In this document: positions 5,300 through 9,987 of the stretch, in pieces
Layout of the letters: each line of letters opens with the position of its first letter
Numbering within the stretch: the stretch's first letter is position 1
Virus record (IMG/VR): IMGVR_UViG_3300043446_003391
Location: 1-27,123 of that record
Direction: 5' to 3' (one strand)
DNA length: 27,123 bases
From: a virus
Made by a program: the position numbers and the translations under genes
Notes under the pieces: model-generated
The model's input: only the letters and a program-made list of their open reading frames with translations
Database searches by the model: none
What the model was told of the DNA's origin: nothing

Positions 5300-6688
5300 G
5301 CTGTCTGTGTCGCTAATATGAGCGTTCCATTTAGAAGCTAGTGCTTTTTTCACCATATTCTCGCTATCACCCATTTCATTTAGTATTGACATACCTTCTT
5401 TTGAGTTTTCTCCGTAGATTTGGATATCACCACATCCAGCGTTCATTCGGCTTGGGAATGTCAATCCGTCTGGTCCGAATCGGTTTTTAATAACATGGAA
5501 ACGTGCTGTATTGGCTGCCTTATCAGTGACCTTACGGCTGAGAGACATAACAAAGTCTGCCGTCATAATCTTACGATAACTGTCAGCAATACTGTTGGCC
5601 TGAATAATATCTTCATCCATAGCACTACGGTTGGATTGTGAAGCAGTCCAAACTGGAATTTGGAGTTCACCGGCGATACCACGTAGTTCTTCATAAATAC
5701 CACCAGCCTCATTATAACTGTTGCTGTTTCTCTCACTGTGAGACGGTCTGAGAATATCAGCATAATCAACAATGATCATGTCGATCTTGGTGCCAAGCAT
5801 TTGAACACGTTCAACGTGCAATTTCAAATGATGTGCAGATACCGTCTTGATAGGATAATACTTGATGATCAGTTTACCGGGAACCTTAGCAATCTTGTCA
5901 CGAACAACGTCAACATTGTTACGAATGTTTTGGAAATCAATTCCAGTAAAACATGCATCATAACGAAGACCCACATAGTTCTGGTTGAGTTCCAAAGTAT
6001 AATGAACCACGTTCTTACCTTGCTTCATCGCCTCTGCACCCAACTTACACAACACCCAACTCTTACCACTACCTGCACAAGCAGTTACAACACCAAGTTC
6101 ACCTGACGCAAGACCACCGTCCATGATTGTATCCAATTCATTCCAGTTTGTCTTGATGGTATTACGTGCCATAACACTCATACGGTCCTCAACTTCAATC
6201 ATATAGTCATGACCGATGTTTCGTTCCATACCTGCCTTCAAAGCAGAATCAACCACAGACTTGATACGTTCATATTGACCAGACTTAAGTAGATCGATAC
6301 TGTCAACAATAGCACTCTTCAGTTTTTGATTTTTACAAAACTCAAGATACTGTTCTTTGACAAACTTCAAATCGGTATCAGTGATCTTCTGATATACGTT
6401 ACGTAGTTGATCCTTTACAGATGTCTTCAACAGTTCGTTTTCAATGGTATCCAGCTTGATTCTGAATACATTCATTGTGGGCAAATCCTTGTATTCCATG
6501 AAGTACGCCAACGTTTCTTTTACGATCCATTGGTGTCCATCTGACTCAAATGAGTTGGGATCAATAATGTCAGACAACCGTTCCAAAAACGTTTTGTCGC
6601 TCAAGATACCCGAAATACATTTGATTTGAAATTCTGCCCCGTATTTCTTTAGATTATCAATAATTTGTGGTTGTTTAGTATTACTCAT
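5294..6688 (-). CDS. Replicative DNA helicase, DnaB/T4 gp41-like
   Basis: A 464-residue RecA-fold hexameric helicase that would unwind the phage fork ahead of the polymerase and work with a primase. Residues 1-110 look like the DnaB N-terminal helical domain, and the C-terminal half holds the motor. Walker A is at 203-210 (ACAGSGKS, with Ala in place of the usual first Gly). The H1a-type Glu follows in HYTLELNQ (Glu233), Walker B is IIVDYAD (Asp308), and a TASQSNRS segment matches the conserved Gln of motif H3. The tail is acidic (ISDTDSD), as in several phage helicases. The start has a good site (AAGGAAG, 7 nt from ATG). The neighbours (exonuclease upstream, nrdA downstream) support the replication role. 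Confidence 0.95.
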   Translation of the reverse strand: MSNTKQPQIIDNLKKYGAEFQIKCISGILSDKTFLERLSDIIDPNSFESDGHQWIVKETLAYFMEYKDLPTMNVFRIKLDTIENELLKTSVKDQLRNVYQKITDTDLKFVKEQYLEFCKNQKLKSAIVDSIDLLKSGQYERIKSVVDSALKAGMERNIGHDYMIEVEDRMSVMARNTIKTNWNELDTIMDGGLASGELGVVTACAGSGKSWVLCKLGAEAMKQGKNVVHYTLELNQNYVGLRYDACFTGIDFQNIRNNVDVVRDKIAKVPGKLIIKYYPIKTVSAHHLKLHVERVQMLGTKIDMIIVDYADILRPSHSERNSNSYNEAGGIYEELRGIAGELQIPVWTASQSNRSAMDEDIIQANSIADSYRKIMTADFVMSLSRKVTDKAANTARFHVIKNRFGPDGLTFPSRMNAGCGDIQIYGENSKEGMSILNEMGDSENMVKKALASKWNAHISDTDSD

Positions 6689-6704
6689 ATATTCACTTCC
6701 TTAG

Positions 6705-6731
6705 TATACACTACGCCCGTCGTAATGTATA
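6705..6731 (+). other. Hairpin between exonuclease and helicase genes
   Basis: TATACACTACG (6705-6715) pairs with CGTAATGTATA (6721-6731) in 10 of 11 positions around a 5-base loop. On the plus strand it is followed by agttttttt, the form of an intrinsic terminator, but no plus-strand gene reads into it. On the sense (minus) strand it sits just before the helicase ribosome binding site. It may block antisense transcription or shape the helicase leader. Confidence 0.45.
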
Positions 6732-6746
6732 GTTTTTTTGTTTCGG

Positions 6747-7770
6747 TTATCTCACGAACGTGTCCAAACGTCCAAACACTTCACTTAACCATACTTGATA
6801 ATTGGGAATATTGTTCCACATCTTGTCCTCGGTTATAAGTTTGGAAAAATTGAACCTGTCCAGCTTTTTGACTGGACCGTCTAGTATTTCGTTGATACGG
6901 AGTTGTGAGAAACTTTGAATCTCCGTATTTTTTAATTGCATCAATGTATGGTTTCTTTCAACTATACTCTTGTTGTCCAAAATTGTTCTATAAACCTTGT
7001 ACTTGCTGTGATTGTTTTCACAGTGGTTATAGATTTCGTTCAATGTAACTTCTCTGTCTTCTGACAAAAATGGAAATGCCTTTATGATGGTTTTCAAACC
7101 AGCGCCATAAATGCCGTCGATGTTGTCCGATTCATCGCCTTCAAGAACTCTGTACCATATGAAGTTTTTACAACTGATTCCATATTCGTTCAGAATTTCA
7201 GCACACCCATAAAGTTTTTTCTTGGTAGGACTCCACACTTGAATTCGTTCATTTGTCAACTGTAGAAAATCCTTGTCGGCACTCATTATGGTTACATTGG
7301 TGTCATCTTTATAGTATTGTTGTGCAATGTAAGCAATGGTGTCGTCTGCCTCAATATGATCGATTGCCATAGTAGTGATAGGCAAACAATCAAGATAGTG
7401 TATGGATCTCATCAACTGTGCCTTGAGATTCTTTTCTTCCAAGTCGGCAGTAGAAAGATCGCTGTATGCTCTATTGAGTCGGAGTTTTGTTTTCTTGCGA
7501 TCTTTGTATTCAGGATAAATCTTACGACGTTTCATACTTCCGCCGTTTCCATCGAATACAATTACGCATCGTGATGCGTTCAACAATTTCAACGCATATC
7601 CTACGCTTTTGAGAAATCCGGAGATGCCGCCGGTATGAAGACCATCGTCGTTCATCGACGGCACCACTGAGTATGCTCGGATAAAAGTATTGACGCTAGA
7701 GGCCGTCAACCAACAGAATATTACTATTTACGAGTCTATTCAATTCTGTTGTGACGGCCTCTCCTTTCAT
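6747..7770 (-). CDS. 5'-3' exonuclease (T4 RNase H / FEN family), split by a +1 frame change near codon 24
   Basis: The main body (6747-7697 in one frame) is a FEN-like 5'-3' exonuclease that removes RNA primers and flaps during lagging-strand synthesis. It shows VIVFDGNGGSMKRR, IEADDTIAYIA, MSADKDFLQ and EGDESDNIDGIYGAG, which carry the acidic metal ligands and the H3TH-like DNA-binding loop. The only start in this frame is a weak TTG at 7709, and that form would lack the first catalytic Asp. In the other frame, an ATG at 7770 gives MKGEAVTTELNRL...NILLVDGL and then TAG (7696-7698). VDGL is exactly the missing N-terminal motif, expected to continue as NTFIR, which is found just past the stop. 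A +1 shift or a 7-base bypass at CTC-TAG would restore the enzyme. Alternatively the gene is broken, or a sequencing error is present. Confidence 0.85.
7698..7762 (-). other. 20-bp hairpin ending at the in-frame TAG of the exonuclease gene
   Basis: Arms AGAGGCCGTCA (7698-7708) with TGACGGCCTCT (7752-7762), and CAACAGAAT (7711-7719) with ATTCTGTTG (7743-7751), pair perfectly, with only a 2-base bulge (7709-7710) and a 23-base loop. The hairpin spans codons 3-24 of the N-terminal frame. The TAG stop overlaps its 3' foot. See the recoding finding. Confidence 0.85.
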
Positions 7771-7777
7771 GTTTTCG

Positions 7778-7802
7778 AAAAGAGAAAATAGTCTTCTCTT
7801 TT
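7778..7802 (-). terminator. Hairpin at the end of the homing endonuclease gene (possible weak terminator)
   Basis: A perfect 9-bp stem, AAAAGAGAA (7778-7786) with TTCTCTTTT (7794-7802), and a 7-base loop begin at the endonuclease stop codon. They end 8 bases before the exonuclease ATG. The 3' arm is T-rich, but little U-tract follows, so termination would be weak. It may also control exonuclease translation. Confidence 0.45.
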
Positions 7803-8737
7803 CATTTTCGTTTATGTTTGTCATTTAATATATCTTCTATAAATTGTTTTTTATTATCGCATCTTTCCCAATCAAACTGCCAAATAGTTTCTGCACGATA
7901 TCCTTTTTGGATTGCTGTTTCAATTTTTAATTGATCTTTTTCCCAAATTTTAGATGATTCTTTGTCATTATAAAACCTTGGATCTCTATGCCAATATGTA
8001 CCATTGAATTCTATTATCAAATTTTTTTCAAATACATATACGTCATATGGTTTTCCATTGATGATATATTCATCTTTGACGGTATATCCAGCGTTTGTAA
8101 TAATATCGATTATCTCACTATGTCCTTTAGATTTATAAATTGGTTTATGAACGCCATTTATCCATTGTTGTTTTGTAATTTCAGAAAGTTTACTTTTTGT
8201 CTCATCTGAGTGAGTGAAATTGATTCTAGTTTTGGATTTCTTCTTCCTAAGTTTTAGTTTATGTGATTCACTTAACGGTTTATCTTTCAGTGACAATCGT
8301 ATTTTATTTATAGTTGTTTGAGAATGATGATATCCTCGTCTGCTTTCTTTGCGCTTTAATTTTGAGGCTTCTGATTGACTGTGCGGAAGACAGTATTTTA
8401 TCATCGATTCTCTAGATTTAGATTTTGCTAATTCATTGTTTTTCCAATAACGATTAACTCCATCTATCATTTTTTGTCTACGATCTTCCGATATGTAGTA
8501 ACTTTCTAATGATCTGTTTTTGTGAGCATTTTTTGCGGTCCTATGACGTGATATTGAGTTTATCACATCTTTTCCATAAATGTCATATAAAATTGACCTT
8601 ATTTTTTGTGCAGTTTTACTTCCGATACATTTAATTCTAAAAATAGAATTTAGCCCACAATACGTTTCATTTTTTATAAATTCTTCATAGATTTCATTTG
8701 CTAAAAGATTAAGCTTTTCCGCTTTGCTTGTATTCAT
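7802..8737 (-). CDS. Free-standing homing endonuclease, NUMOD3-like repeats plus Vsr/PD-(D/E)xK-type nuclease
   Basis: A 311-residue protein. Residues ~138-190 contain repeated NUMOD3-like DNA-binding motifs (HSQTTINKIRLSL, LSESHKLKL, HSDETKSKLSE), typical of phage homing endonucleases. Residues ~217-290 form a nuclease fold of the Vsr/DUF559-like type: PYDVYVF (Asp232), LIIEFNGTYWH (Glu243, His250), a Lys-rich helix, then GYRAETIWQFDWE. Related Vsr-like (EDxHD) enzymes include I-Bth0305I, which lies in a phage recA intron. Here too the gene directly follows the recA/uvsX gene. The N-terminal ~115 residues are basic and unassigned. The gene is visibly more AT-rich than its neighbours, lacks a Shine-Dalgarno site and is flanked by hairpins, all consistent with recent insertion. 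It probably cuts alleles lacking it and spreads by repair. Confidence 0.85.
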   Translation of the reverse strand: MNTSKAEKLNLLANEIYEEFIKNETYCGLNSIFRIKCIGSKTAQKIRSILYDIYGKDVINSISRHRTAKNAHKNRSLESYYISEDRRQKMIDGVNRYWKNNELAKSKSRESMIKYCLPHSQSEASKLKRKESRRGYHHSQTTINKIRLSLKDKPLSESHKLKLRKKKSKTRINFTHSDETKSKLSEITKQQWINGVHKPIYKSKGHSEIIDIITNAGYTVKDEYIINGKPYDVYVFEKNLIIEFNGTYWHRDPRFYNDKESSKIWEKDQLKIETAIQKGYRAETIWQFDWERCDNKKQFIEDILNDKHKRK

Positions 8738-8787
8738 GTCAATAAATATAAGACAAAGCGGAAAAGCATCTAATGAACCTAATTTTA

Positions 8788-9987
8788 TTATTCCTCGCCA
8801 CTTCCAGTATCACCTTCATCTTCCGATTCGTCAAGTTCTACATCTTCACGAATTTCACTGTCAGGTGATTTATATGCCATAACAGTTGATTCGACGATCT
8901 TCTGATACAGTTCCTCTCGGAGTTCTGCATCTGCCTTAACGTCTTTAGCAAATGTTTTAGCATCAATCTTAACAACTTCACCATTGTTTCGAGTGTAGTT
9001 GTATGGACTCTTTGCGCCAGAAATGTGTGAATATTTCTTCAACACTTCAATCCAGTTACCGTAGTTGTCTACGCCACTATCATAGTAAATGTTAAAGTCA
9101 GTATATCTCATAGGAGGTCCAAGACGATTTTTAACTACAACCGCTCTGGTCTTTACACCGATATGAACTGGATCACCATTTTGTGTGACCTTCAACGCAC
9201 CCATTCCCTTCAAACGAAGACGAACAGAAGCGTGGAATTGTAGAGCCTTACCTCCGCTAGTGATGTACTTGTCTCCAAACATTGCTGCTTGAAGATTGAC
9301 ACGTAGTTGGTTTGTGAAGATCAAAGCGATACGTTGTTTACCAATCATATCGTTAATCTTTCTCATAGCCTTGGAAATAATAATGGCCTTACCAGTAGCA
9401 AAACCATCCTTACCGTGATCGCTTTCCAATTCTGCCTTCGTAGATGCAGCTGCAACGCTGTCAACTACAATCGTAACAAGACGATCTTTATTTGATTTAC
9501 GAACGTGGGCGACGATTCCTTCGATCTTCTCAAAGATGTCTTCCACCGTTTGTGAAGCGATATACAACATTTGTTTGGTGTTAACACCAATTGCAGTCAA
9601 AAAGTCTTGAGATACGGACTGTTCAGTGTCAATAAACACTGCTACTCCGCCTTTCTTTTGTGTTTCTGCCAACAAGTGTGCCGACAACAAACTCTTACCG
9701 GATGCTTCCAATCCAGTGATTTCGGTGATACGTCCCACCGGAATTCCACCATGAGGACGATTTGATATTGCAAGATCAAGCAAGTCTGATCCTGTGCTAA
9801 TCCAGTCGGTGATTACCGATGGATCTTCTTTGTCATCCAAGAAAAATGCAGTCTTACCGCTGTCTTTGTTTGCTTTGTTAAGCATATCTGCCAAAGATTC
9901 GGTAAGTTCATCTCTCTTGGTTTCAACTTCATGAGTTACATGAGTCGATAGTTTCTTCTTTTTTGGTGTATCTTTATTTTCGGACAT
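8788..9987 (-). CDS. uvsX: UvsX/RecA-like recombinase
   Basis: A 399-residue strand-exchange ATPase that would coat ssDNA after gp32-like protein and drive recombination-dependent replication and repair. Walker A is at 92-99 (GLEASGKS), the catalytic-Glu segment is FIDTEQS, and Walker B is VTIVVDSVAA (Asp176). ALIFTNQLR and the L2 region SGGKALQFHASVRLRL resemble bacterial RecA closely. Residues 1-50 are a charged helical extension. The C-terminus is strongly acidic (DVELDESEDEGDTGSGEE), as in RecA and UvsX, where it tunes DNA binding. It is preceded by a terminator after the ssDNA-binding gene, so it may depend on read-through or its own promoter. The homing endonuclease follows 50 bases downstream. 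Confidence 0.95.
   Translation of the reverse strand: MSENKDTPKKKKLSTHVTHEVETKRDELTESLADMLNKANKDSGKTAFFLDDKEDPSVITDWISTGSDLLDLAISNRPHGGIPVGRITEITGLEASGKSLLSAHLLAETQKKGGVAVFIDTEQSVSQDFLTAIGVNTKQMLYIASQTVEDIFEKIEGIVAHVRKSNKDRLVTIVVDSVAAASTKAELESDHGKDGFATGKAIIISKAMRKINDMIGKQRIALIFTNQLRVNLQAAMFGDKYITSGGKALQFHASVRLRLKGMGALKVTQNGDPVHIGVKTRAVVVKNRLGPPMRYTDFNIYYDSGVDNYGNWIEVLKKYSHISGAKSPYNYTRNNGEVVKIDAKTFAKDVKADAELREELYQKIVESTVMAYKSPDSEIREDVELDESEDEGDTGSGEE

Follow-up and report, generated by a model that had tools for sequence, protein, structure and literature searches.

A putative mobile endonuclease/bypass cassette at the start of phage 5'-3' exonuclease genes

What is known of programmed bypass in phages and bacteria comes essentially from a single well-studied case, gene 60 of phage T4. 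The endonuclease and bypass sequence found there reportedly form a mobile cassette. A homing endonuclease gene (HEG) lies beside gene 60, whose 50-nt bypassed insert possibly protects against the nuclease (PMC5009743, PMC3014915), and the 5' stem-loop has been described as a "motor" behind the ribosome (PMC5009743). A 2010 review regarded this bypass as apparently unique (PMC3014915), and a 2016 review noted that counterparts had long been presumed but were rare, with no natural in-frame stop-hop known (PMC5009743). Here we analyze the 27.1-kb virus record IMGVR_UViG_3300043446_003391 (the window, i.e., all 27,123 nucleotides), in which a HEG lies directly upstream of a 5'-3' exonuclease gene whose 5' part is interrupted by a stop codon, a hairpin and a change of frame. 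We consider it very probable that this is a mobile HEG/bypass cassette in which a 5' hairpin drives short "stop-hops", a counterpart of T4 mobA/gene 60 to which it is not related. This reading is based on the anatomy of the locus, its recurrence among relatives, covariation, codon matching, linkage and before/after pairs of phages, from which we infer cleavage by the HEG product, the hop, the action of the hairpin and a fused product.

Interrupted exonuclease genes among related phages

The first open reading frame (ORF1) of the window exonuclease starts at ATG 7824-7822 and reads MTNINENEKRRLFSLFEN..., a beginning common to relatives, up to the junction CTC / TAGCGTC / AAT, where a gap of 7 nt precedes a second frame (ORF2) that begins at the AAT (7691) and reads NTFIRAYSV. 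In uninterrupted relatives the residues are continuous (LLVDGLNTFIR). Alignment to Taq polymerase shows the LLVDG motif to be conserved; its Asp is a catalytic metal ligand, therefore neither half of the exonuclease should work alone. The stop, hairpin and frame change that the first-pass annotation had pointed out near the 5' end are real (fold of -44.9 kcal/mol over 135 nt, z -6.2, with 0/200 shuffles as good), but the start codon that it had placed 31 bases past the end of the HEG is not the true one: the ATG given above overlaps the HEG end, and the ATG at 7770 is internal.

The exonuclease, the HEG and alignments of each, used as queries, recovered 318 loci with an exonuclease match. Two were dropped because the match began past residue 25; the remaining 316 had a readable junction and comprised 188 distinct sequences. 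Alleles with an in-frame [VIL]D-x-x before Asn were taken as uninterrupted, L365 (CDGLN) was also scored so, and the window copies L001 and L002 were excluded from the counts, which are not population frequencies, given that each scan retains the best 80 loci; the viral records are also possibly incomplete. Of the 188 distinct sequences, 26 are interrupted at this one codon boundary and 162 are uninterrupted, hence the window interruption is not a matter of chance. Nine junction types can be told apart (Table 1), not all independent, as types T5, T7 and T9 may have one origin; their gaps of 5, 6, 7 or 11 nt represent all three frames, and in all 26 interrupted alleles the codon immediately after the take-off codon is a stop (TAG, TAA or TGA).

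Several simpler candidates were discarded. Assembly error is ruled out because the interrupted state recurs in many contigs. A reassigned stop codon was rejected, since the interruptions employ three different stops and involve changes of frame, and the standard code leaves the large window genes open. Of 20 main window ORFs inspected, 14 terminate at TAA and 6 at TGA, and no tRNA genes were found in the four locus stretches scanned. A group I intron or another known RNA was likewise set aside (no Rfam intron match in window 6600-9100 or in L047 2700-4500, just sub-threshold microRNA models), as was a simple 1-nt frameshift, first suggested by a TTG start at 7709, given that other types need other frames.

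Comparison of the take-off codon with the triplet before Asn gives 18 identical bases of 27 across the nine types, whereas five neighbouring offsets give 3-7 (permutation P 0.001; 0.002 when types T5, T7 and T9, i.e., those with TGA and gap 6, are collapsed; 0.011 with other representatives). At least two of three bases match in eight of nine types, and the match is perfect only in L404 (CTT-TGA-CTT). As the gap lengths cover all three frames, no single frameshift or readthrough accounts for the whole set; a hop to the triplet before Asn would account for all of them, and from the sequences it would restore the ancestral protein exactly. Ordinary recoding particular to each type, i.e., a +1 frameshift for gap 7, -1 or +2 for gaps 5 and 11 and stop readthrough for gap 6, appears very unlikely to us: in the four gap-6 types (L104, L106, L178 and L404) readthrough by itself would suffice to connect the frames, but three unrelated mechanisms would be needed at one site, no classical slippery heptamer is seen by eye at the junctions, every variant would add residues beside the catalytic Asp, and matching at the Asn-adjacent triplet is not predicted. 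It is also quite unlikely that the enzyme is made in two pieces, ORF1 ending at its stop and ORF2 reinitiating separately (at GTG in type T2 and TTG in types T1, T4 and T6) before the polypeptides assemble. Usable starts do lie just upstream of Asn in these four types, and split genes have precedents in Aeh1 nrdA (split by mobE) and T4 gene 39/60 (PMC2988022), but the lack of any ORF2-frame ATG, GTG or TTG upstream of Asn in five of the nine types (T3, T5, T7, T8 and T9) argues against reinitiation, as does the region after Asn, where L104 has no such start for 22 codons and L106 none in the 40 codons examined. Two pieces would also leave unexplained the position of the hairpin, the stop fixed at one codon and the matching of take-off and landing codons.

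All 26 interrupted alleles can fold into a strong stem, with its 3' end at -3 to +1 of the take-off codon. Among 15 representatives, 10 of 20 base pairs have changed on both sides (0/500 shuffles as high), and pairing is found in 88% of cells, versus 29-51% when the partner is slid by 1-3 columns; the 5' arm of L104 was misplaced in the MAFFT alignment and mostly counted as gaps in this analysis, per-sequence folds being checked separately. This covariation, together with a stop that is kept while changing from TAG to TAA and TGA, implies selection in the interrupted state. Some uninterrupted alleles (L022-L036, L064-L082 and kin) carry a strong hairpin too, no more than 75 nt upstream of Asn and in most cases stopping ca. 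7-12 nt short of where the DGL codon ends, which is possibly the relic of an older cassette.

Linkage and mobility of the endonuclease gene and the junction

When loci were collected with the exonuclease only (best 80 loci), 20 of the 27 interrupted loci had a full-length HEG upstream, as opposed to none of the 53 uninterrupted ones, a count free of ascertainment bias but not collapsed to distinct sequences. The corresponding figures in the distinct set (18/26 versus 4/162) are biased in this respect, because HEG searches were the source of types T3 to T9 and of the four uninterrupted alleles with a HEG. The site DGLNT is found in 107 of the 162 uninterrupted alleles. As the four HEG-bearing exceptions all have substituted sites, none of the 22 HEG carriers keeps an intact DGLNT, versus 107 of 166 non-carriers.

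The comparison with close HEG-free phages that the first-pass annotation had suggested was informative: L003 has an uninterrupted VDGLNTFIR and no HEG, the C-terminal part of its exonuclease is identical to that of the window over the 293 columns compared, and most of the difference between the two records lies between the RecA stop and a point 24 nt beyond the junction. Similarly, L047 (interrupted, with HEG) and L043 (uninterrupted) have flanks that are 100% and 99.9% identical and a difference that spans the RecA stop to the junction, along with five scattered bases in the first 60 nt past it. The same boundary, with flanks 95-99% identical, is seen in L085/L067, L006/L007, L073/L075, L029/L032 and window/L003, i.e., near-identical pairs are distinguished by the cassette only, and this difference ends at the junction or at most ca. 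60 nt from it. The comparison with L003, the five further pairs and the DGLNT count thus support the earlier proposal that the HEG and the recoded exonuclease start make up an endonuclease/bypass cassette.

On an exonuclease tree of 20 of the 26 interrupted and 75 of the 162 uninterrupted alleles (nearest uninterrupted partners included on purpose), the interrupted state changes 18 times, at least 14 of them on supported branches. In 14 independent pairs on this tree, the HEG goes with the interruption in about 10 and never the opposite way. In types T1, T2 and T3 the HEGs group by type in supported clades, therefore HEG and junction travel together.

A number of observations weigh against the cassette as we describe it. 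HEG-free relatives with the same hairpin and stop, named in the first-pass annotation as evidence to the contrary, do exist, given that a full-length HEG is missing in 8 of the 26 interrupted alleles; since a 22-aa piece of the HEG is left in two of these and the RecA-exonuclease spacer is 235-274 nt long in most others, most look like decayed cassettes, and L008 retains no trace. Conversely, four uninterrupted alleles adjoin a HEG (sites DGMNL, DGYNL, DGTNT and DGLNQ). The predicted landing triplet of the window (GTC) is mismatched with the take-off CTC at the first codon position, and take-off and landing match poorly in L100 (CTA/AAA) and L178 (CTC/CGC). The hairpin as such is not specific, as 37 uninterrupted alleles of one clade also fold strongly; at energies of -24 or below, the hairpins of this clade end at least 5 nt upstream of the end of the corresponding codon in 37/37. 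Finally, the dN/dS of the exonuclease (0.03-0.06; six of ten pairs were saturated or misaligned and not used) may reflect time spent in the uninterrupted state.

This last point would also suit the view that the interruption destroys the exonuclease and is maintained purely by selfish HEG drive, as ORF2 could have been under selection while the gene was still uninterrupted and some interrupted alleles are recent, with flanks identical to those of uninterrupted phages. We judge it highly improbable: the covarying hairpin and the stop kept across TAG, TAA and TGA speak for selection while interrupted, ORF1 and ORF2 remain open in eight alleles in which the HEG has decayed or vanished (L005, L006, L008, L039, L072, L078, L270 and L274), and no second exonuclease copy was found in any of the 11 records searched, nine of them interrupted, although several may be incomplete.

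We postulate that the mobile cassette operates as follows. The endonuclease would cut uninterrupted exonuclease genes at the conserved DGL-NT boundary, and donor-templated repair would copy the segment from about the RecA stop to this boundary, HEG included, a tract seen in the sequence comparisons above; the donor allele would be protected because 5-11 extra nt split the target site. During translation, the ribosome would pause with the last DGL codon in the P site and the stop codon in the A site, and the hairpin, by analogy with the T4 5' stem-loop "motor", may refold behind the stalled ribosome and push it forward. The ribosome would then cross 5-11 nt in one hop, land on a triplet similar to the take-off codon and resume at Asn, producing ...VDGL-NTFIR...; in the window, such a hop would yield the junction tryptic peptide LVNSNILLVDGLNTFIR.

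The homing endonuclease and its surroundings

The main window genes are on the minus strand, in the 5' to 3' order RecA, HEG, 5'-3' exonuclease and helicase-like gene (Table 1). The AlphaFold model of the HEG product (pLDDT 79, pTM 0.38) best matches the catalytic domain of I-Bth0305I (PDB 3r3p, E 5.7e-4, prob 1.0), followed by Vsr endonuclease (1cw0, 1vsr), so that the predicted fold of its nuclease domain is Vsr/EDxHD-like. An invariant E, D, EFNGTYWH and D are present in 11 aligned HEG rows. The first-pass annotation had described a NUMOD3-plus-nuclease HEG: the gene (8737-7802) and a nuclease, Vsr-like by predicted fold, stand, but NUMOD3 is only a sub-threshold Pfam match (E 0.047). No HNH model is among the Pfam matches; phrog_559 carries an HNH label, but the HEG match to it appears to cover the Vsr-like region. 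A 14-bp perfect inverted repeat encloses the HEG start codon, and comparable stems are found in several other cassettes, e.g., L083, L085 and L029. It is likely to serve translational control of the HEG, by analogy with T4-type phages, where hairpins limit HEG translation (PMC3014915).

HEG matches in the phage collection are partial and weak, and a scan of the genome collection with the HEG alignment gave four weak, irrelevant matches. In Microcystis phage Mel-JY01 and Flavobacterium phage immuto, RecA is followed directly by the exonuclease, with no HEG annotated between them. Four uninterrupted loci (L037, L282, L305 and L306) have other ORFs between RecA and the exonuclease, without detected similarity to the HEG, therefore the spot may be an insertion hot spot. 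In L297, a different, more distant nuclease-like ORF adjoins an uninterrupted exonuclease with the substituted site DGNNL, and 13 of the 162 uninterrupted alleles (L242-L273 and kin) read DFMNT, Phe replacing the Gly after the catalytic Asp. Elsewhere in the window, a short ORF (1537-1743) consists of nearly all Pro-Thr repeats.

Table 1 Features of the window and junction types of the interrupted alleles (take-off codon / gap / first codon of ORF2)
Feature	Position	Strand	Remarks
RecA	9987-8788	-	
14-bp perfect inverted repeat enclosing HEG start codon	8713..8767 (arms 8754-8767, 8713-8726)	-	
Window/L003 difference tract	7668..8785	-	Putative homing/co-conversion tract, from sequence comparison
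HEG, 311 aa	7802..8737	-	Predicted Vsr/EDxHD-like catalytic domain; ORF; phrog_3339 homing endonuclease, E 1.7e-10; AlphaFold model
Exonuclease ORF1	7699..7824	-	42 codons, ATG to take-off codon, ends ...ILLVDGL
Hairpin 5' arm	7743..7762	-	Folds; covariation
Hairpin 3' arm	7698..7719	-	Codons ILLVDGL and first stop base; folds, covariation
Take-off codon CTC (Leu)	7699..7701	-	From sequence; putative role
UAG stop directly after take-off codon	7696..7698	-	From sequence; stop here in 26/26 interrupted alleles
7-nt insert TAGCGTC	7692..7698	-	Absent from uninterrupted alleles (comparison with relatives); includes predicted landing triplet GTC 7692-7694
Exonuclease ORF2	6747..7691	-	NTFIR... to its stop; Pfam 5_3_exonuc_N, E 1.1e-25
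Helicase-like gene	6688-5294	-	Name borrowed from matching gene order in phage records
Type T1: CTC / TAGCGTC or TAACGTC / AAT			Window, L004, L005, L006, L008
Type T2: CTG or TTG / TAGTG / AAT			L026, L029 and kin
Type T3: ACT or ACG / TAGCT / AAT			L102, L180
Type T4: CTA / TAGAAAA / AAC			L100
Type T5: CTT / TGACTC / AAC			L104
Type T6: CTT / TGAAGAAGCTG / AAT			L105
Type T7: CTT / TGACTA / AAT			L106
Type T8: CTC / TAACGC / AAC			L178
Type T9: CTT / TGACTT / AAT			L404

Comparison with known systems

No report of a second HEG/bypass cassette or of a natural stop-hop was found in the literature as covered by titles and the beginnings of abstracts, subscription papers and preprints being mostly outside this coverage. 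The closest solved fold to the HEG model, I-Bth0305I, is intron-encoded, whereas the HEG described here is free-standing beside its presumed target, the exonuclease. I-Bth0305I belongs to a phage-encoded, elongated, multi-domain EDxHD family (PMC3943268). The bypass inserts of Magnusiomyces capitatus mitochondria resemble ours in being short, bypassed in translation and flanked by imperfectly matched take-off and landing sites, but they are mitochondrial and reported to be largely independent of mRNA context, and linkage to a HEG is not mentioned in the accessible account (PMC5009743). The "stop-hops" of synthetic constructs have the form of L404 (CTT-TGA-CTT), L104 (CTT-TGA-CTC) and L106 (CTT-TGA-CTA), but the present cases are natural and linked to a hairpin and a HEG.

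In T4 mobA/gene 60, as in the window, the neighbour of a HEG is a gene that carries a non-coding insert, located after codon 46 in T4 and codon 42 here (PMC5009743, PMC3014915, PMC11194080); common to both are also a stop directly after the take-off codon, a 5' stem-loop behind the ribosome and an insert thought to protect against the nuclease. The differences are considerable. Gaps here are 5-11 nt, compared to 50 nt in T4; a take-off stem-loop cannot form inside them; the hairpin abuts the take-off codon; and Leu or Thr codons, often matched at just two of three bases, are used instead of Gly. The target gene is another one, nine junction types exist, and the HEG family is Vsr-like, unlike the HNH MobA (PMC2988022).

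Judged by its sequence, the cassette would work like that of T4 without the long gap and the in-gap stem-loop, with another HEG family and in another gene. On balance, we lean towards a broader view in which minimal bypass signals form a widespread family: a hairpin ending at the take-off codon would act as a spring by which a stop gives rise to a short forward hop, the landing codon being only loosely constrained, and non-HNH HEGs would rely on this hop repeatedly, across distantly related phages, to make the replication gene that is their own target resistant. The nine natural short-gap variants, with comparative signals for each part and near-isogenic before/after pairs, open two questions to experiment: by what means a ribosome advances without decoding, and how, with neither intron nor intein, a selfish endonuclease can live with a target in conserved coding sequence. 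If the broader view is true, the "stop-hops" of synthetic constructs would have a natural home, and T4 gene 60 would be one elaborate case of a general strategy.
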